Shown in pieces: positions 15,263-25,402 of a DNA stretch of 64,000 nt. How positions within the stretch are numbered: the first letter of the stretch is position 1; every line of letters starts with the position of its first letter. A program made the position numbers and the translations under genes. The notes below the pieces were generated by a model. That model had not been told where the DNA came from. It ran no database searches and saw only the letters and a program-made list of their open reading frames with translations. The DNA lies in NCBI RefSeq assembly GCF_015207375.1, contig NZ_JADEWY010000015.1, forward strand, positions 1-64,000. Direction: 5' to 3'. Source of the stretch: Coleofasciculus sp. LEGE 07092. GTDB taxonomy: Bacteria; Cyanobacteriota; Cyanobacteriia; Cyanobacteriales; Coleofasciculaceae.

Positions 15263-16519
15263 TTACGGAAAAACTCGACTCGGAGAGGTTACAGGAGCAC
15301 TGGGATGATTGTAAGTACCCCATTCTCGAATACCGCGATCGCTCAATACTGATTCAGCATGGCGAATTTGAGGTTCAGTCCCCTCAATCAGAACCAGATA
15401 CTCTCCATTCGAGACGCGATCAATGTAAATTTTGGCTCGATCTTCAGGAATACCCATCCCAATTAACACACCTAAAAAACCACCAGCCGCAGCACCAATC
15501 GCACCTCCGGCTAAAGTAGAAGCGATCGCTGTCGCTTCGGCTCCCACAAACACAATGGGACCAATACCAGGAACTGCCAAACTTCCCAAACCAACCAGCA
15601 AGCCTGTCAATCCGCCCAAAGCACCACCGGCAAGCGCACCCGTTGCAGCACCCTCACCCGCTTTAGTATCAGTAGGTTCGCTCATATCAGCCCCAGCAAC
15701 CTGTTCTCGACCCTGATTATCTCGCGCAATCACAGAAACCTTGCTCATATCAAACCTAGCCGCTCTCAATGTATTAAGGGCAGCGTCAAGTTCTGCATAG
15801 CTCGGAAAAACCCCAACCGCTCGTATGCGGTGAGTCACGGGTGTAGCCGCAGTAGTTGGAGTTACAGTCGCAGGAGGTAAGGGTTCACCCAAAGGTCCGG
15901 TAGTCGTCGTTCCCAGTGGCGCTGGATATCCAAAATTCCCAGCGGCAATGGGACTGGTATACATAGGATCGGCAGTATTAACCGGGGGAATTTCATAAAT
16001 TCTCCATTCTTGTACTCCTCGCAGGGTAAGCACAGAAGCCGCACGCTTCATATCTTCATCCGTGCCGTCTACAATCACCAAATATTCCCCTCTCTCAAGC
16101 CGATCATGGTAGATATACGCTTCTGATTCGGGAATACCCAAACCCATTAATGCACCCAACAAGCCACCAGCCGCCGTGCCAATTGCACCGCCAGCCAAAG
16201 TCGTACCAATAACAGAAGCTATTGCCCCCCCAACCAGAATAGGTCCTACTCCCGGAACCGTAATTGCACTTAAGGCTCCGATTAAACCGATAATCCCTCC
16301 TGCAACGCCACCCGTGACGGCACCCGCAGCCGCACCCTCAGCCGCCTCATTACCCGTATCATCTTGCACATTTACACCGGCGATGCGATCGCTATCTCGT
16401 GCAATGATCGAGATTTTGCTCATGGGAAAACCAGCATCCCTAAGTTCTTGCAGTGCGCGTTTTGCTTCTTGACGAGTTGAAAAAATACCAATTGCCCGCT
16501 TGTGTTGACCTAATACCAT
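15263..16519 (-). CDS. duplicated glycine-zipper stress protein (17M-like)
   Basis: This 418-residue protein has two copies of the same module. Each copy has an AIGIFSTRQEAKRALQEL/AVGVFPSYAELDAALNTL domain resembling the general stress protein 17M fold. Each also has a long Gly/Ala-rich hydrophobic glycine zipper and a YLVIVDGTDEDM/YLVLIEGTEPQI strand. The zippers may insert in or associate with membranes. GGAGGA lies 7 bases before the ATG at 16519, which decides the start. It is divergent from the kinase gene at 16916. A stress role is inferred from family resemblance only. Confidence 0.75.
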   Translation of the reverse strand: MVLGQHKRAIGIFSTRQEAKRALQELRDAGFPMSKISIIARDSDRIAGVNVQDDTGNEAAEGAAAGAVTGGVAGGIIGLIGALSAITVPGVGPILVGGAIASVIGTTLAGGAIGTAAGGLLGALMGLGIPESEAYIYHDRLERGEYLVIVDGTDEDMKRAASVLTLRGVQEWRIYEIPPVNTADPMYTSPIAAGNFGYPAPLGTTTTGPLGEPLPPATVTPTTAATPVTHRIRAVGVFPSYAELDAALNTLRAARFDMSKVSVIARDNQGREQVAGADMSEPTDTKAGEGAATGALAGGALGGLTGLLVGLGSLAVPGIGPIVFVGAEATAIASTLAGGAIGAAAGGFLGVLIGMGIPEDRAKIYIDRVSNGEYLVLIEGTEPQIRHAESVLSDRGIREWGTYNHPSAPVTSPSRVFP

Positions 16520-16915
16520 TATTTCTTCCTCCATCTAGGAATTACCAGACCAACACTACTCTTAAATCAAATTAAAGTTTCAGCTTTGTGCTGGCGCTGC
16601 TACCTTCCTATTGCTACATTTTTGGAGAAGCAATTCATCAGTCGATAGAGATAATCAACAAAGCTTTTCCCCTATCTACAGAAAGATTTTAGAAAATTGA
16701 TGGAATGAAATCCTAACCAACGACAGCTAAATTTTAAAAAAATGGTTTCAAAAATAGTTTAAATGCCAGCCCTCAAAACGGATCTGCCTTTAGAATCAAG
16801 CTATTCACGGAAATTTCGACTAATAAGTTCGGTTTTACGACCCCAGATCGATGAACGATCCCAGTATCCTCGTAATTAGACGAGTGGAACTTGCTGTGCA
16901 TGGGGATAGAAAGCG
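16520..16915. promoter_or_regulatory. divergent intergenic region
   Basis: These 396 AT-rich bases lie between the glycine-zipper gene and the kinase gene. They must contain both promoters. I see no tRNA, repeat or strong hairpin in it. Confidence 0.5.
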
Positions 16916-18553
16916 GTGCAAAAGTGGTTGTTACCAAGCTTAAGTGAAGTTCTAGCCCAGAGTATACAAACTGGGCAACATGATAAAACTGTGCCTCCGG
17001 TCGAACCAACGACTGTAACCGAAAAGGGACAGCGAGGTGCTACAAGTTCCTGGACTAAGGAACTAATACGATCGCAACGGGAGTGGAAAAGCGCGATCGC
17101 GTCCTTAGAACAGTTGCTATTGCAATTAATTTCTCAAGCAGGTAGCGGTTGTGATTCCCTATCGCTTCAAGGATTAGTACTATCGGGTCCTGTACCCATT
17201 TTATGTCACGCCGATCTACTTTCCCGTTTCCAAACCGGGATTTTTACGACCGAGGCATTGAAAGGTTGGAGTTGGATGCCTTTTCAATTGCCTGCTGCCA
17301 AACAAAAACAACCTCCACAGGTTAACGCTAGTACCTGTGAACTACCCTTGTTTCCTGCTGACCCCTTAGCATCAGAGCAGTTTTGTTTGGTATTTACCCC
17401 TAACTTTAGTTTAGTGATGGTCTGCGGTCAAGACCAGACGGGGATTCCTGCTTTTCGTTTCTCCTTCGATCCAGAAGATATTCAACAGGCTTGGGCATCC
17501 CTTTACCCCCGGCTATTATTGACGAGTCCCCATCAGCTCAGTCGATTAGAAACTTTGGTCAAACAGTTTGATACCCAACCACCAGATTACCGCTTTGTAA
17601 TGCAATTTGGGCGTCTGTTGCTCCAAAATTTACCCGATATGCCCCAAGCTGAGAAAATCGAAACCATACCCATCACACCTAGTTGTCCGGTGACTCAAGC
17701 TTTTAAATCTCAACCGGCGAGTGAGACATTACGCGATCGCGAGTGGCAACCGTTGACGAAAAACGAGCCGCGCAATGGGAGCAAGCTATCTCAGTCTCCT
17801 GAGGCTACCCCTGATATTGAACTTTTGCAAGCTCTAACCCATGAAATTCGGACGCCACTGACGACGATTCGCACCCTAACTAAACTGTTGCTCAAGCGCC
17901 GCGATTTGGTTCCGGAAGTAATCCGACGTCTAGAAATTATTGACCATGAATGTACTGAACAAATCAATCGCATGGAATTGATTTTCAGGGCAGTAGAATT
18001 AGAAACAGCAGCAGCCAAAAAAGCGCCAGTTAACCTGACGTCTATGTCCCTGGCTCAAATCTTCCAGCACAGTATCCCCCGTTGGCAAAAGCAAGCACAG
18101 CGGCGCAATTTAACCTTAGATGTTGTCCTGCCTCAAAATCTGCCCACGGTGGTGAGCAATCCTAACTTACTCGATCAGGTACTGACCGGTTTAGTGGAGA
18201 ATTTTACCCGCACGCTGCCGGCAGGCAGTCACATTCAGGTGCAGGTTACTCCGGCTGGCGATCAGTTGAAGTTGCAATTTCAGTCTCAGTCTGATGATGA
18301 AAATTCTGATAGTCAAAATAATTCAGAAAATTCAACCTGTTCAACACTAAAGTCAATTGGTCAGCTTTTGATTTTCCAGCCAGAAACAGGTTGTCTTAGC
18401 TTAAATCTGAATGTGACCAAACATCTGTTTCAAGCATTGGGTGGAAAACTAATTGTGCGCCAGCGTCCTCAAGAAGGGGAAGTGATGACGATTTTTTTAC
18501 CCCTAGAGGTGGGTAACACAACCCTTGATACTCAACGGGAAATCGTGGCTTGA
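16916..18553 (+). CDS. histidine kinase-like protein with degenerate ATPase domain
   Basis: This protein has 545 residues. The N-terminal sensory half (about 1-230) has no membrane segment. The stretch LPLFPADPLASEQFCLVF resembles the corresponding part of the kinase at 18714. HisKA holds the phospho-acceptor His309 in ALTHEIRTPLTTI. In the ATPase region only an N-box remnant (LVENF) remains; the DxGxG and GxGLGL boxes are missing and replaced by a Ser/Asn/Asp-rich insert and an IFQPETGCLSLNLNVTKHLF segment. Autophosphorylation by itself therefore looks unlikely. The start is GTG at 16916 (VQKWLLPSLSEVL). It is convergent with the next kinase gene. Confidence 0.8.
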   Translation: MQKWLLPSLSEVLAQSIQTGQHDKTVPPVEPTTVTEKGQRGATSSWTKELIRSQREWKSAIASLEQLLLQLISQAGSGCDSLSLQGLVLSGPVPILCHADLLSRFQTGIFTTEALKGWSWMPFQLPAAKQKQPPQVNASTCELPLFPADPLASEQFCLVFTPNFSLVMVCGQDQTGIPAFRFSFDPEDIQQAWASLYPRLLLTSPHQLSRLETLVKQFDTQPPDYRFVMQFGRLLLQNLPDMPQAEKIETIPITPSCPVTQAFKSQPASETLRDREWQPLTKNEPRNGSKLSQSPEATPDIELLQALTHEIRTPLTTIRTLTKLLLKRRDLVPEVIRRLEIIDHECTEQINRMELIFRAVELETAAAKKAPVNLTSMSLAQIFQHSIPRWQKQAQRRNLTLDVVLPQNLPTVVSNPNLLDQVLTGLVENFTRTLPAGSHIQVQVTPAGDQLKLQFQSQSDDENSDSQNNSENSTCSTLKSIGQLLIFQPETGCLSLNLNVTKHLFQALGGKLIVRQRPQEGEVMTIFLPLEVGNTTLDTQREIVA

Positions 18554-18713
18554 GAAATAAATGAGGTTTAATACAAGGTTTTGCTCTTACTCCTAGCCCA
18601 TTGGTGACAAGTTATTGGTTTAAGCCTCTTCTAAAATAGCTGTCTTACTTTACTTTTATGTCCCTTTTGTGTCCACGAATCAAATCCACCTGCTATAGTC
18701 TAAAGGAGCGAGG

Positions 18714-20135
18714 CTAAGACTCTTTACTGCCAGGAGCAATAGGTAACAACAGTTTAAACGTAGAACCTTTGCCCACTTTACTCGAAACCGAAATCGAACC
18801 ACCGCAACGAAGCAACAACTGCTGCACAATCGTTAGTCCCAAACCTGCTCCCATCTCTGCACCTGGAATAGGTCGTCCGCGATAAAAACTGTCAAAAATC
18901 TTAGGAATTTCACTCTCAGCGATGCCCATGCCCGTGTCAGTAAAAGTAAGCTGAATGCATTCACCCTGAAGACTTGCCAATACTCTCACCTGACCGCCTG
19001 TCGATGTAAACTTTAAACTGTTGTGAAGCAAATTGATAGTAATTTGCCGCAGCCACGCTTCTAAGCAGGACACGGGTGGCAAGTCTGAGGGTATCGTATA
19101 ACCGATCTGGATTCCTTTTTCTTGAGCCAATGGTTGATAGGTGCTGACCACACCAGGGATAATATCTGCCAGTTCCACTGGTGTTATCAGCAAGTTTTGA
19201 GGTTGGTCAACTTGAACGAGATCAAGTAATCCTGCAATTAAGGAATTCTGGCGATCGCATTCAGTATTGAGTAGCTGCATATAGCGCTGGCGTTGTGTGG
19301 GCTTGATTTGTGGCGAATCCAGCAAACTCAGGGCTGTTTTCATATTCGTCAGGGGTGTTTTGAGTTCCTGAGCGACTTGCTTCAACAGCTCATCTTTATT
19401 GCGTAAATCCTCAGGTAGTGAGGTAAGTGTTGTTTTGTCTGTCACTAATTGAGAAACCGTCGATGGATGCAAAATTTCCTCAATGCGCTGTAGTTGCTTC
19501 ACCAATACCTGAGTCAGGAGATCTCTTTCGTCAGCCACCCAATGCAATGGAAAACGGCTTCCCCAACGCTCTAGCAACTCATCTGGGGTACTATCGGCTA
19601 CTGCAATTATGCTGGTTATCCCCTCTAAAACTCGCTGAATGACCCGCCGTTCAAAGGTGCAAACCACCTGGAAAGATTGGCTTTGACCTGGGTCTGCTGG
19701 TTCAGTTTGGGGTAGCTGAGAGGCTACAATTAGACTGCTAAACTGGTCAGAGAGAACTAACAGAAACAACTCCCGCCTGAGCTGACTCCCTGCTGCTAGC
19801 GGGATAGGAAATAGGGGATAACTTTCATCCACCTCACGGGCTTCACCAATGATAGTCGCAACCTCGGCAGATTCATCTCCAATACAGTGACACAGGTACA
19901 TTGCTTGAAGCAAACCAACCTGTTGCAGATACCCCTGTAGTTCTGACTGCCAATTGGTGATAGGCAGAAATTTGACCCAAAGCGTAGCCGGAATTTTCTC
20001 CTCAACCATTACATCAAGGGTTGCTCCTACCAGGGATTTGAGCAAGGCTGGACTAATTTTAAGAGACTGGGGAGTGGTGAGATTGTCTAGGGCTATCTGG
20101 TAAAGAGATAAATCTGGAGTTGGTGACGGGTTCAT
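18714..20135 (-). CDS. histidine kinase-like protein lacking the phospho-acceptor His
   Basis: This protein has 473 residues. The N-terminal half is a cytoplasmic sensory region. HisKA reads VAQELKTPLTNMKT, with Gln256 (CAG codon) at the position of the conserved His. The ATPase domain is intact: NLLHNSLKF (N), FTDTGMGIAESE (G1), FDSFYRG (F) and GAGLGLTIVQQL (G2). It can presumably bind ATP but cannot autophosphorylate in the usual way. It is tail-to-tail with the His-bearing, ATPase-degenerate kinase at 16916, 160 bases away. A pseudokinase or trans-acting kinase role is inferred. Confidence 0.85.
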   Translation of the reverse strand: MNPSPTPDLSLYQIALDNLTTPQSLKISPALLKSLVGATLDVMVEEKIPATLWVKFLPITNWQSELQGYLQQVGLLQAMYLCHCIGDESAEVATIIGEAREVDESYPLFPIPLAAGSQLRRELFLLVLSDQFSSLIVASQLPQTEPADPGQSQSFQVVCTFERRVIQRVLEGITSIIAVADSTPDELLERWGSRFPLHWVADERDLLTQVLVKQLQRIEEILHPSTVSQLVTDKTTLTSLPEDLRNKDELLKQVAQELKTPLTNMKTALSLLDSPQIKPTQRQRYMQLLNTECDRQNSLIAGLLDLVQVDQPQNLLITPVELADIIPGVVSTYQPLAQEKGIQIGYTIPSDLPPVSCLEAWLRQITINLLHNSLKFTSTGGQVRVLASLQGECIQLTFTDTGMGIAESEIPKIFDSFYRGRPIPGAEMGAGLGLTIVQQLLLRCGGSISVSSKVGKGSTFKLLLPIAPGSKES

Positions 20136-20680: not shown

Positions 20681-21787
20681 TCACATAGGCAGTACCACCC
20701 GTACCTTTGTTGGTTGGTTGGGTGTACTTTCAACGGTTAACTCCCCACCCAGCAATTCGGAAAGACGCTTGCAGATAATCAATCCTAATCCCGAACCTTT
20801 TTGTTCGTAGAGTTGGCGTTCAAATTGCCGATAGGCTCCTAGTTCAGCAATTTGAGCAGCACTCATCCCACGCCCTTGGTCAGCTATTGATAAGCTGTAA
20901 AACAACTCGGCTGATTTGCCGTGACTCATCAGAGTGCCAACCACTTGAATCGGCGTGCCAGGAGCGGAATACTTTAAGGCATTATCAATCAGTTCTTCTA
21001 CAATTTTTTCCAGTCTGGCTTTAGCGCTCTGAATGCTGGAATCTTGCAGTTTTAGTTGCAAATCAGCTTCTCGCCCTACCCGTCGAGCCTGCTGTACGGC
21101 TGTCTGTTCGATCAAGGGTGCAACTGAGCTAGTTCGAGAACTCCGCAGTGCCTCTATGCGATCAGGATCAGTGGCAATTAGTTCGAGTTCGGCATAGAGC
21201 AAAAAGTTTTGAATCAGTCGGTGCAAGCCTTCGGCAGACTTGCGGATGCTTTCCGACATTTGCCGGATTTCTTGCCGTTCCAAGGAATCGGCTTCTTCTA
21301 TTAGTAGCTGTGAAAACCCGAGAATATTGGTGAGGGGCGATCGCAATTCGTGCGGTAAAGACAGGGTGATGCTATGGCGCAACCGATCCAGTTTTTGGGT
21401 TTGCTGTTGTTCAATAACAGCTTGTTTTTGCAGTCGCGCTGAAATTGCGCCCAGCAGTTCCACTCGGGAAAATGGTTTAGTTAGGTAATCATCCGCCCCT
21501 AATTCCATGCCCTGGCGTAAATCAGTTTTATCCGCTCTAGCCGTCAGAAACATGAACGGAATCATTGCCGTAGCTGGGTTTTGGCGTAACGAACTCAAGA
21601 CCCCAAAACCGTCAAGTGTTGGCATCATTACATCACAGATTATCAAATCTGGCAAATGCTGTTGAGCCAAATTAACACCTGTGCAACCATTATCGGCACC
21701 AAGAACCTCAAAATCTTCTGCATCAAGCAAATCAAGGAGATTTTCTCGTACCGATTCTTCATCTTCGATTACCAAAATCTTTGCCAT
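20681..21787 (-). CDS. response regulator-histidine kinase hybrid
   Basis: This protein has 368 residues: REC at 1-120 (ILVIEDEE; phospho-Asp in IICDVMMP; Lys in DYLTKPFS), then HisKA with His in LPHELRSPLTNIL, then HATPase with NALKYS, IADQGRGMS and GSGLGLIICKRL. There is no membrane segment, so it is a cytoplasmic relay in which the receiver gates a kinase. It lies 26 bases downstream of the RR-GGDEF-EAL gene. Its REC is a close paralogue of the other two RECs in this cluster. Confidence 0.9.
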   Translation of the reverse strand: MAKILVIEDEESVRENLLDLLDAEDFEVLGADNGCTGVNLAQQHLPDLIICDVMMPTLDGFGVLSSLRQNPATAMIPFMFLTARADKTDLRQGMELGADDYLTKPFSRVELLGAISARLQKQAVIEQQQTQKLDRLRHSITLSLPHELRSPLTNILGFSQLLIEEADSLERQEIRQMSESIRKSAEGLHRLIQNFLLYAELELIATDPDRIEALRSSRTSSVAPLIEQTAVQQARRVGREADLQLKLQDSSIQSAKARLEKIVEELIDNALKYSAPGTPIQVVGTLMSHGKSAELFYSLSIADQGRGMSAAQIAELGAYRQFERQLYEQKGSGLGLIICKRLSELLGGELTVESTPNQPTKVRVVLPM

Positions 21788-21813
21788 TTGTCTAGTCCTT
21801 CCTTTTTAATCCA

Positions 21814-23565
21814 TTAATCAATGGAATTGGCACCGATAGGTATCGGTAATGATTTACGGTTAATTAGTAATTTCTCAAACTCGTTAGCTGATAAGGGACG
21901 GCTGAATAAATAGCCTTGCATTCCATCGCATTGGTGTTGACAAACAAAGGCAAGTTCAGTTTCAGTTTCTACTCCTTCTGCAATTAATTTTAATTTCAAA
22001 CTTTTTGCCATTTGAATAATGGCTTGAGTAATGGCAGCATTACTAGAGTTGTCCATAATATTACGAACAAAACACTGGTCAATCTTTAAAACATCGAAAG
22101 GAAATTGTTGCAAATAGCTCAATGATGAATAACCCGTACCAAAATCATCAATAGCAATTTCTACGCCTAGCGCTTTTAAGGCATTCAATCGACGAATCGC
22201 TACCTCAACATTTTTGATCAGCATACTTTCCGTTAGTTCTAACTCTAAATACTGAGGTTGAAGGGCAGTTTGATTCAAAATTTTGACTAACCGTTGACGC
22301 AAGTCTACTTGATTGAATTGACGACTCGACAAATTTACTGCTACTCGCAGAGAAGAAAAGCCCGCCCTCTGCCAGTCTTTAGTTTGCTGGCAAGCTGTCT
22401 GCAACACCCATTCCCCAATCGGGACAATTAAACCCGTTTCCTCAGCGATGGGAATAAATTTACCGGGGGACACCATACCCCGTTCTGGATGCTGCCAACG
22501 CAAAAGGGCTTCAGCACCCATAATTTGTCCGGTTCGGAGATTGACTTGAGGTTGGTAATAAACCTCAAGTTCATTCCGTTCCAAAGCATGGCGTAGGCTA
22601 GTTTGTAAGGCGAGGTTATCTGAAGAACCCGTGTTTAAGACTGAGGAATACCACTGATAGAGATCGCCCCCCTGTTGCTTTGCCTGAACCATCGCCTGGT
22701 TCGCCCGAGCCAGTAACTGCTCAATATCAGCGCCATCACGGGGAGAAAGTGCCATACCGATACTGGCAGTCACAAACAGTTCTTGCTCCTGCACAACAAA
22801 CGTTTGAGAGAAACTTCTCAAGATAGCTTGAGCAACTTGAATGGCATCTTTTTTATGATGAATGGTGGCTAAGATAATGGCAAATCGATCTGCATTTAAG
22901 CGAGCAACGATATCCTTAGAACCAACACAGGCAGTAAGGCGTTGAGCAACCGCTTGCAATAACAGATCGCCAAAGGCTTGCCCCAGGTTATTATTGACTT
23001 GGTTGAATCGATCTAAACCGAGACAGAGAACCGGAATTAAGGATTGAGTTTCAGTGGTTTGTACCTGATTGAACTGTTCTCTCAGGGATAGCTGATTGGG
23101 TAATCCAGTCAAGCTATCATGGTGCATCAGGTAATTTAGTTGTTCTTTGGCTACTTGGAGTTCACTGTCGTAGAACTTTTGCACGGCGGCTTGCTTTTTG
23201 AAGCGCGTTGCTATTGCTCCTAAGAGTTCGGCTCGGGTAAAGGGTTTCGTTAGATAATCATCGGCTCCCAATTCCATACCCTGACGAAAATCGGCTTTAG
23301 CGGCTTTTGCTGTTAAGAAAATAAAGGGAATCGCTGTCAAAGCCGAATCTTGGCGGAGCGCTGTTAAAACCCCGTAACCATCGAGGGCTGGCATCATCAC
23401 ATCGCATAAAATCAAATCCGGTTTCTGTTCTCTTGCTAAATCGATACCAATGTTACCGTTTTCTGCACCAATTCCTTCTATTCCTTCAGCATCTAAGAGT
23501 TCCAGAATGTTTTCCCGAACGAATGTTTCATCTTCAATCACTAGAATTTTTTTCGTCATGTTCAT
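21814..23565 (-). CDS. response regulator with GGDEF-EAL output
   Basis: This cyclic-di-GMP phosphodiesterase candidate has 583 residues. REC covers 1-120 (phospho-Asp in LILCDVMMP). A GGDEF domain follows (HHDSLTGLPN) whose catalytic signature is NADRF instead of GG(D/E)EF, so it is probably inactive or GTP-sensing. The EAL domain has GAEALLRWQHPE, LELTESML, IDDFGTGYSSL, LKIDQCFV and AEGVET, all expected for hydrolysis. The start codon lies inside the 3' end of the preceding kinase gene (32-base overlap), implying translational coupling. ATG codons at 23565 and 23559 are both possible. Confidence 0.92.
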   Translation of the reverse strand: MNMTKKILVIEDETFVRENILELLDAEGIEGIGAENGNIGIDLAREQKPDLILCDVMMPALDGYGVLTALRQDSALTAIPFIFLTAKAAKADFRQGMELGADDYLTKPFTRAELLGAIATRFKKQAAVQKFYDSELQVAKEQLNYLMHHDSLTGLPNQLSLREQFNQVQTTETQSLIPVLCLGLDRFNQVNNNLGQAFGDLLLQAVAQRLTACVGSKDIVARLNADRFAIILATIHHKKDAIQVAQAILRSFSQTFVVQEQELFVTASIGMALSPRDGADIEQLLARANQAMVQAKQQGGDLYQWYSSVLNTGSSDNLALQTSLRHALERNELEVYYQPQVNLRTGQIMGAEALLRWQHPERGMVSPGKFIPIAEETGLIVPIGEWVLQTACQQTKDWQRAGFSSLRVAVNLSSRQFNQVDLRQRLVKILNQTALQPQYLELELTESMLIKNVEVAIRRLNALKALGVEIAIDDFGTGYSSLSYLQQFPFDVLKIDQCFVRNIMDNSSNAAITQAIIQMAKSLKLKLIAEGVETETELAFVCQHQCDGMQGYLFSRPLSANEFEKLLINRKSLPIPIGANSID

Positions 23566-25402
23566 CAGTGGATAGCGAATTGTATAGTGGCAATGTAACC
23601 GTAAACGTAGTGCCTACCCCGATTTCACTGTCTACACCAATCTGTCCGTGGTGGATTTCCACGCATTTTTTAACAATTGCCAATCCTAATCCAGTTCCAG
23701 CAATTGTGCCTGCATTAGTGGCGCGGTGGAATGCTTCAAATAACCGTTCTTGATCCTCAGTTGGAATCCCGATACCGCGATCGCAAATTTCAAAGACTGC
23801 CCAGTCAGCATCACAGTTCAGGGTAAATCTGATGGTGCTACCTGTAGGAGAATACTTCATCCCATTGCTCAACAAATTTTCCAAAATTTGCCGTAGCAGT
23901 TGTTTATCCATGCAGGCAATAGGAGATTCAGCTTTTTCCCCCTCTAGTCCCCAATTACAAGTAAATGCGATCGCGTGTTGATTGGTATCACTCAGTTGCA
24001 TTTCTGCCGCTAAGGTGCGGCAGAAACTTTCTAAGTCGAATGGCTCTGGCTCTAACTTGAGTTTACCCGCGTCTGCTTTACCTATCATCAACACATCATT
24101 CAACAACTTAGTCATATAGTTAACAGAGATTTGAATGCGGTGCAGGTGAGCCAGTTTTTTTTCTTGGGATAATTTATGACCGTAATGTTCCATTAATTCC
24201 GCTGAGGATTGAATTGTGGTTAGGGGTGTGCGGAATTCGTGGGATGTAACGGTGATAAAGCGAGATTTCAAGTCACTGAGTTCTTTTTCTTTAGCCAAGG
24301 CGTTGAGAATGTCTGTTTGGGCTTGCTCTAGTTGCTCCTCGATCCTTTGGCGCTCGATAATCTCGGCTTTGAGAACTTCATTTGTTTTTCTCAAGGCTGC
24401 CGTGCGCTTTTCAACTCGCTCTTCTAACGCATCATTGACTTGTTCGAGGATGAGTCGCCCTTGTACACGCTCCGTAATGTCTTGCACGATAATGGAAACT
24501 TCGTCTAACCCGCTTTCGACAATGCGGGCTTCAAAATTACGAGCTTTGCTGTTCAACCACAGTTGATATTCAACAATCTGAATTTCATTGGTTTCCAATG
24601 CTTGCTCGACACGCTCCCACATTAGCCCCGCTACCTCCTTCGGCAGCACCTGATGCAAGTGTTTACCGACTATTTCAGTCGCAGATATCGGTAAGGTATC
24701 TGCTTTGGCAGCTTTCGAGTCTAGATAAATACCATCTCGCGTCACCCGAAATATGGCATCCGGTACGACTTCCAGAAGAGCGCGGTGTCGGGCTTCACTT
24801 GCTTGTAAGCCGGATAGTATCTTTTGCCGCTCTTGGATTGCCGTTTGGTAGTGCTGTTCGAGTTCGGTTTGGTAAAATGCGATCGCCCACTGATCGGCAA
24901 TTGCTTGCACAAAAGTAATCTCTGCGGGCATCCACTGCCGTTCATTTCCCGTTACTAACAGGCTAATTGCGCCGTAACAAGACTGGTGGTGCAACAATGG
25001 TACGACTAAGATGCCACACAAGCCACAGACTGTCATCCAATCTTGAAGTTCAATTGATATTTTTTCGTGCAAATCTGGTATAATTAGGTGCTGCTCTTGA
25101 TTGTGCCAAAAGCGATAGTGTTCGCAAAACTCCCAAAAGACACTAGCAGGTTGGAAAAGTGTCTCACTATCTAAAGATGCTACCCGTGGCTGGGAATCTG
25201 AAGCCGAAAAAATCAGACAGCCACTAACTTGCAAAACTTCGCGTAACTGATTGGCGGATGCCTGTAGCACGTCCTTGAGAACCAATACCCCCCGTGTAAC
25301 TTGGGCAATCTGATTAATCGTTGCCCCTTGAGCTGTTAACAGATGATAGTCTATCCTTTCCTGTCCAGTCCTTTTGGAGATAGGTAGATGCTGGGGTGAC
25401 AT
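23534..25402 (-). CDS. GAF-PAS sensor histidine kinase
   Basis: This 622-residue cytoplasmic sensor kinase has a GAF domain at about 45-190 and a PAS domain at about 205-325 (LLEVVPDAIFRVTRDG). A coiled coil and HisKA follow (His in VTSHEFRTPLTTI), then HATPase with LENLLSNGMKYS, EICDRGIGIP and GTGLGLAIVKKC. The GAF lacks an obvious bilin Cys next to a His, so I do not call it a photoreceptor. It sits between a single-domain RR and the RR-GGDEF-EAL gene, the natural phosphotransfer partners. It overlaps the latter. Confidence 0.9.
   Translation of the reverse strand: MSPQHLPISKRTGQERIDYHLLTAQGATINQIAQVTRGVLVLKDVLQASANQLREVLQVSGCLIFSASDSQPRVASLDSETLFQPASVFWEFCEHYRFWHNQEQHLIIPDLHEKISIELQDWMTVCGLCGILVVPLLHHQSCYGAISLLVTGNERQWMPAEITFVQAIADQWAIAFYQTELEQHYQTAIQERQKILSGLQASEARHRALLEVVPDAIFRVTRDGIYLDSKAAKADTLPISATEIVGKHLHQVLPKEVAGLMWERVEQALETNEIQIVEYQLWLNSKARNFEARIVESGLDEVSIIVQDITERVQGRLILEQVNDALEERVEKRTAALRKTNEVLKAEIIERQRIEEQLEQAQTDILNALAKEKELSDLKSRFITVTSHEFRTPLTTIQSSAELMEHYGHKLSQEKKLAHLHRIQISVNYMTKLLNDVLMIGKADAGKLKLEPEPFDLESFCRTLAAEMQLSDTNQHAIAFTCNWGLEGEKAESPIACMDKQLLRQILENLLSNGMKYSPTGSTIRFTLNCDADWAVFEICDRGIGIPTEDQERLFEAFHRATNAGTIAGTGLGLAIVKKCVEIHHGQIGVDSEIGVGTTFTVTLPLYNSLSTDEHDEKNSSD

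Follow-up and report, generated by a model that had tools for sequence, protein, structure and literature searches.

Two conserved kinase-like proteins with complementary defects in Coleofasciculus: a possible ATP-blind member of the Hik2–Rre1 pathway and a DICT kinase with glutamine for histidine

How can a genome keep one histidine kinase that lacks the ATP-binding boxes and, beside it, another that lacks the phospho-acceptor histidine? The question is raised by a gene pair of the cyanobacterium Coleofasciculus sp. LEGE 07092, located in the first 64,000 nucleotides of contig NZ_JADEWY010000015.1 (assembly GCF_015207375.1), the stretch analyzed here and referred to as the window. The genes of the two proteins, A and B, are convergent, with an intergenic spacing of 160 bases, and therefore do not form an operon. 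An earlier reading of the DNA, the original prediction, proposed that A and B make up one working kinase by trans-phosphorylation in a heterodimer. Based on the analysis reported here, we consider the chances about even that A is instead an ATP-blind member of the Hik2–Rre1 pathway and that B represents a separate family of DICT kinases with Gln in place of the acceptor His. The features of the pair are listed below, G1 and G2 denoting the DxGxG and GxGLGL-like ATP-binding boxes.

16916 to 18553, forward strand: A, a histidine-kinase-like protein of 545 residues with a GTG start, containing a HisKA domain with its His and no G1 or G2 box; candidate member of the Hik34 family.
17321 to 17656, forward strand: residues 136–247 of A, related to the second half of the DICT domain and the following linker of B.
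17819 to 17971, forward strand: HisKA domain of A, residues 302–352 (Pfam), with the His309 codon at 17840–17842.
18161 to 18508, forward strand: pseudo-catalytic domain of A, residues 416–531, conserved in sequence, with the G1 and G2 boxes absent and the N box degenerate.
18714 to 20135, reverse strand: B, a DICT–HisKA(Gln)–HATPase_c protein of 473 residues.
19719 to 20114, reverse strand: DICT sensory domain of B, residues 8–139 (Pfam).
19203 to 19397, reverse strand: HisKA-type domain of B, residues 247–311, with the Gln256 codon at 19368–19370.
18735 to 19061, reverse strand: intact HATPase_c domain of B, residues 359–467 (Pfam, motif residues and structure comparison).

The HisKA domain of A scored 30.6 bits against a Pfam cut-off of 26.9, and its HATPase_c match, at 20.4 bits, fell below the cut-off of 26.4; the corresponding scores of B were 42.3 bits for HisKA and 82 for HATPase_c. 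No CheA domain appeared in either protein among the Pfam matches at E ≤ 1, which listed HisKA and HATPase_c. No NCBIfam family exceeded its cut-off among the best 25 matches listed for each protein, and sequence searches of the Protein Data Bank with A and B returned distant kinases only. The kinase fold is kept in both AlphaFold2 models (pLDDT 80.8 for A and 84.7 for B). In structure comparisons, the top rows for A were a RetS/GacS co-complex (Z 17.2), DivL (16.6) and HK853 (16.5), amounting to a tie, and the best match of B was WalK (Z 24.7), with DivL (22.9) good without being the best.

The defects themselves are conserved. The original prediction had assigned to A the phospho-acceptor His309 and the loss of DxGxG and GxGLGL, and to B an intact ATP-binding domain with Gln256 instead of His; relatives of both proteins bear this out. 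Counting one row per genome, with genome duplicates and one A locus with a broken-off end excluded, the acceptor His of A was kept in 86/86 genomes (48 with B and 38 without), and none of the 86 had a G1 or a G2 box. In the N box, which is degenerate, the Asn at position 429 persists in the window protein and in 14 of these genomes. Another 20 A loci came from genomes that are small or distant; 18 of them had a readable H-box, in each case with His, and the search for a G1 or G2 box in the 20 found none. The H-box of A, His-Glu-x-x-Thr-Pro, lies in a full phospho-acceptor helix, with Glu in 88 and Thr in all of 92 alignment rows (duplicates and partial copies included), and the pattern of the C-terminal domain is itself conserved across relatives.

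For B, sequences were read from the 57 genomes fetched out of the 87 found to encode it, and the acceptor position was Gln in 54 (52 of 55 in the alignment, plus genomes G163 and G183, represented by other loci), the exceptions being His in locus L058, Arg in L130 and Glu in L145. The ATP-site residues N372, D400, G402, G404, G429, G431 and G433 were all present in 53/55 genomes. Across the 67 rows of the B alignment, eight of which are the small kinase S described below rather than B, the residue following the acceptor was Glu in 59, and the Thr/Asn position of the phosphatase motif was Thr in 44 and Asn in 11. Of the features of a functional histidine kinase, A lacks G1 and G2, and B lacks the acceptor His and has the N, G1 and G2 residues. 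With both the defects and the remaining motifs conserved, A and B are two conserved families rather than two broken genes. Phosphorylation of A from ATP, if it takes place, probably requires the ATP site of another protein, and Gln in place of His rules out ordinary autophosphorylation of B at its own acceptor.

Substitution of this kind occurs elsewhere in the same genome: considering the best 94 of 116 HisKA matches, the acceptor was Gln in three (B and two others) and His in the rest. One of the others (L309:487-2094, QELRTP) appears doubly deficient, its ATP boxes not being found by motif scan; the second (L317:715-2580, QELRNP) keeps a G2 box, and Gln for His is thus not specific to B. 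The His of the B orthologue at L058:880-2535, whose same-genus-code relatives L057 and L059 have Gln, may be a natural reversal or a retained ancestor.

The N-terminal halves had also been claimed to share similar segments, and profile comparison confirmed this. When the N-terminal halves were aligned alone with hhalign, residues 136–247 of A matched residues 104–223 of B with a probability of 96.5 (E 8.6e-10), compared with 0.8 for a reversed control and at most 0.5 for ten column shuffles; single-sequence BLASTP of A against B gave kinase cores and chance matches only. The aligned part of B comprises the second half of its DICT domain and the linker. By the Pfam model itself (PF10069, cut-off 23.8 bits), B is a DICT protein (87.3 bits), as are 48/48 of its relatives at E ≤ 0.01, whereas A remains below the cut-off (14.8 bits) and just 1/50 of its relatives matched at that E-value. 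Two other types of DICT protein were met in the stretches read. One combines DICT with a kinase in about 625–660 residues and has the acceptor His in all seven read; the other, also common (L233:1489-2850 and relatives), has about 430–500 residues and no kinase core seen by reading.

To what extent the two families travel together was assessed in a class sample of 195 cyanobacterial genomes, drawn evenly with a completeness of at least 90% requested. Profile searches identified A in 185 genomes, including some of 1.6–1.9 Mb; this count was used instead of the 161 obtained with an N-terminal query, which missed divergent members. B, called at E < 1e-50, a threshold placed in the break that separates matches at 2.9e-55 from those at 8.3e-37, was present in 87. 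This co-occurrence check, proposed with the original prediction, went against an obligate pair, as 98 of the 185 A genomes lack B. No B genome lacks A (0/87), which means little given that A is near-universal. In the 56 of the 98 B-less genomes in which A was read, namely the 38 in the alignment and the 18 with readable further loci, the His was kept without exception.

Gene order is similarly loose. With distance taken as the gap between matched parts, A and B were convergent within 4 kb in 14/87 B genomes from eight families, and two more had them in the same orientation at a distance within 5 kb. Among the 80 loci most similar to A (its best matches, overlapping in part with the 195-genome sample), B lay convergent downstream in 28 and in the same orientation as A in one; in 51 it was absent from the stretch read, some stretches being short. 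A murE-like gene was found in the stretch around B (flanks of roughly 1.5–10 kb) in 32/57 B genomes, whereas A occurred in 14 of these stretches; three of these proteins were named murE by NCBIfam, and the others are phmmer matches to one such protein that could include other Mur ligases. The proximity of B to a murE-like gene extends to genomes in which A is distant, and the adjacency makes a tie of B to cell-wall synthesis possible. The simplest account is a murE–B–A neighborhood that has been kept or broken up, with no obligate pair. In many lineages (L041, L044, L112, L114, L140 and others), the murE-like gene immediately precedes B on its strand. In L077, L177 and L218 it follows A with B missing from the locus, and in L209 and L215 it lies at a greater distance. 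Identification of this neighbor as murF was considered and rejected on the three NCBIfam names.

If B is not the general partner of A, another kinase may be, and the specificity helix of A offers an indication. Residues H+7 to H+20 were compared with 81 segments from the same genome, obtained by a six-frame motif search of the fetched stretches in which a few chance matches are possible. The highest score, 38, belonged to a 500-residue kinase with an N-terminal input part on contig 274, here called K; the next was 21 and B scored 14 (mean 8.2, sd 7.6, n 81). Over the whole 26-residue segment K was again the closest to A (67, next 59). Since the helix of K is the closest to that of A and the helix of B is unlike it, A looks built to meet the regulator of a Hik2-type kinase rather than the regulator of B.

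The assignment of K to Hik2 draws on a second arrangement. In 14 genomes from three families (f15, seven; f24, six; f36, one), a small kinase with His and ATP boxes, S, is encoded immediately after A and in the same orientation, by coordinates in every case. S has no input domain and comprises 208–277 residues in those read, and in the 8 loci read the A–S gap ranged from a 1-base overlap to 96 nt. The best relative of S among the own-genome kinases fetched is K (197.9 bits, next 152.2), and the two fall into one clade (SH-aLRT 95) in a quick tree of 108 kinase cores that included no named Hik2. Hik2, or chloroplast sensor kinase, is published in a class I with GAF and a class II without it, the latter in Gloeobacter and two JA Synechococcus strains (PMC5904244). 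By architecture, K fits class I and S the GAF-less class II, whereas A lacks the ATP boxes of Hik2; the available part of the class II literature (PMC5904244) mentions no A-like gene beside it. The 385-residue matches of the small-kinase profile were considered as SasA and dropped, as searches with K match the same places and mark them as Hik2-type.

In 8/8 stretches read, one of them ended by the contig, S is followed by a regulator of one family, which contains receiver and LuxR domains by Pfam in three of three scanned and has relatives in 189/195 genomes. Such a regulator is what would be expected of Rre1, the LuxR-type protein that works with Hik2 and Hik34 (PMC13421787, PMC9321951, PMC3264485).

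Hik34 of Synechocystis PCC 6803 (slr1285) is the described protein that A most resembles. It is reported to have an H1/HisKA motif only, with no conserved ATP-binding motif and no transmembrane domain, and to be unique among 47 Synechocystis kinases (PMC4390874). Like it, A has the HisKA motif without the ATP-binding motifs, a likeness of description rather than of compared sequences; the best 80 matches to A listed from a scan of genome contigs included no PCC 6803 record. Because A is present in 185/195 genomes it should occur in Synechocystis, and A is therefore most likely Hik34. The Hik34–Rre1 module is reportedly conserved, to judge from the title of a 2017 paper by Kobayashi. Hik34 acts with Rre1 (PMC4390874, PMC3264485, PMC9321951), and A, in genomes with S, is linked to the receiver–LuxR regulator by gene order.

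The mechanism that we infer, including the complex and the direction of phosphate flow, would be as follows. A would combine an input segment related to DICT and a complete phospho-acceptor helix with a catalytic domain of conserved fold and no ATP boxes. Its histidine would be served in trans, most likely by a Hik2-type kinase in a mixed oligomer, and/or A would exchange phosphate with, or remove it from, the response regulator and thereby act as a brake. A brake would fit the report that loss of hik34 raises heat-shock transcripts and its overexpression lowers them (PMC3264485). B would phosphorylate another His protein or use ATP to gate a phosphatase or scaffold action.

Several observations weigh against placing A in the Hik2–Rre1 pathway. 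Recombinant Hik34 is reported to autophosphorylate in vitro (PMC4390874, PMC3264485), which speaks against ATP-blindness, and orthologues of Hik34 are stated not to be found in other bacteria (PMC4390874), which counts against its identity with A if that statement covered other cyanobacteria; A, by contrast, is proposed to be partner-dependent and belongs to a near-universal cyanobacterial family. The proposed Hik34, Hik2 and Rre1 identities derive from published descriptions and not from named sequences. The A–S arrangement occurs in just 14/195 genomes, and in the Coleofasciculus genome A, K and the best match of the regulator are on contigs 231, 274 and 46. The presence of A and K is also loosely coupled: all six genomes of one genus (f27 g33) contain K and lack A. 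At E ≤ 1e-50, no K was found in 28/195 genomes, two of them with S, and among 20 K-less genomes listed, 14 belong to one family of 1.6–3.0 Mb genomes (f12), all with A.

Among the alternatives, the one that survives best concerns B, which may be a phosphatase-only or scaffold relative of kinases, comparable to DivL and tied to murE and cell-wall synthesis instead of A. We regard this as a serious possibility, though short of probable. The acceptor Gln, the Glu that follows it, the prevalence of Thr or Asn at the phosphatase-motif position and the murE-like gene around B are all consistent with it. However, no regulator is linked to B, the gene next upstream of B in the window encodes a receiver-kinase rather than MurE, and the structural match to DivL is below that to WalK. 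In DivL the acceptor position is Tyr, compared with Gln in B. RetS–GacS of Pseudomonas and DivL–CckA of Caulobacter resemble the present proteins as atypical kinases acting through another kinase, but they belong to other lineages and respond to other inputs.

A second alternative overlaps with the Hik2–Rre1 reading: A could be chiefly a phosphatase of, or competitor for, an Rre1-type regulator, opposing Hik2 and keeping its His for back-transfer. The conserved His-Glu-x-x-Thr motif and the heat-shock phenotypes of hik34 point in this direction. The positive action also reported for Hik34 in salt and osmotic stress (PMC4390874) does not, and on balance this role is somewhat unlikely as the principal one.

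It is less likely again that A works as a phosphotransferase of the Spo0B or ChpT kind, with dead catalytic domains, passing phosphate between receivers with no need of a kinase partner. Spo0B and ChpT are kinase-like dimers without ATP binding. The kinase fold of A without G1 and G2 boxes, with Z scores of 16–17 to RetS, DivL and HK853, would suit such a role, as would its near-universal and mostly unlinked occurrence and the 116 HisKA matches of the genome, many of which lie in open frames of >1,000 residues that may be hybrid kinases. Against it, the genes beside A in deep lineages encode a kinase of simple type and a regulator that binds DNA, and no hybrid kinase with a receiver. A also differs from Spo0B and ChpT in keeping a canonical HisKA H-box.

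The heterodimer of the original prediction, in which the ATP domain of B phosphorylates His309 of A to give one kinase with two DICT-type inputs, is unlikely. Its foundations stand: the complementary defects are conserved, the N-terminal halves are related, part of the loci are convergent and B never occurs without A. The role of B as the partner is what found no support, in view of the 98 genomes with A and without B, the convergent genes and hence absent co-transcription, the adjacency of B to a murE-like gene also in genomes with A at a distance, the specificity helices (14 for B against 38 for K) and the near-universality of A, owing to which 0/87 says little. A precedent for such a division is CheA3/CheA4 of Rhodobacter sphaeroides, in which ATP binding and phospho-acceptor are on separate proteins (PMC3591291, PMC6829392); those proteins are of the CheA type, whereas A and B are of the HisKA type.

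In B-containing genomes, A could also be served by both a Hik2-type kinase and B. In its broadest form, which we consider improbable, a split kinase found throughout the class would share A as its phospho-acceptor subunit, charged by GAF-less Hik2 (in deep branches, in one cluster with the Rre1-type regulator) or, in other lineages, by class I Hik2 and, where present, by B, whose acceptor would have been lost because B phosphorylates only A. That A and B are decaying paralogues without function, each lacking a feature that ordinary kinases need, is highly improbable given their long open frames and strong conservation across the bacterial class.

Two further observations concern the surroundings of the pair. 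At 15263-16534, the window encodes a 423-residue protein with two copies of a glycine-rich hydrophobic segment recognized by eye, and a look-alike lies upstream of A in nine loci. Upstream of B and on its strand, at 20681-25402, are three further signaling genes. The outer two encode a receiver-kinase and a GAF-PAS kinase by Pfam, and the middle one a receiver protein in which GGDEF/EAL-like stretches were recognized by eye.

The literature that was searched, which excludes most subscription journals and was available in part, mentions neither the cluster of A with GAF-less Hik2 nor a Gln-for-His family. In its available portions, it leaves open how Hik34 becomes phosphorylated without ATP motifs and why some early cyanobacteria have a sensor-less Hik2. 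The cluster of A, GAF-less Hik2 and a LuxR-type regulator suggests one answer to both, with the sensor and the catalytic parts residing on two proteins. Were A a shared acceptor, one histidine would integrate several kinases. The B family, with Gln at the acceptor position and its ATP site preserved, would provide a natural case of a kinase core unable to phosphorylate itself.

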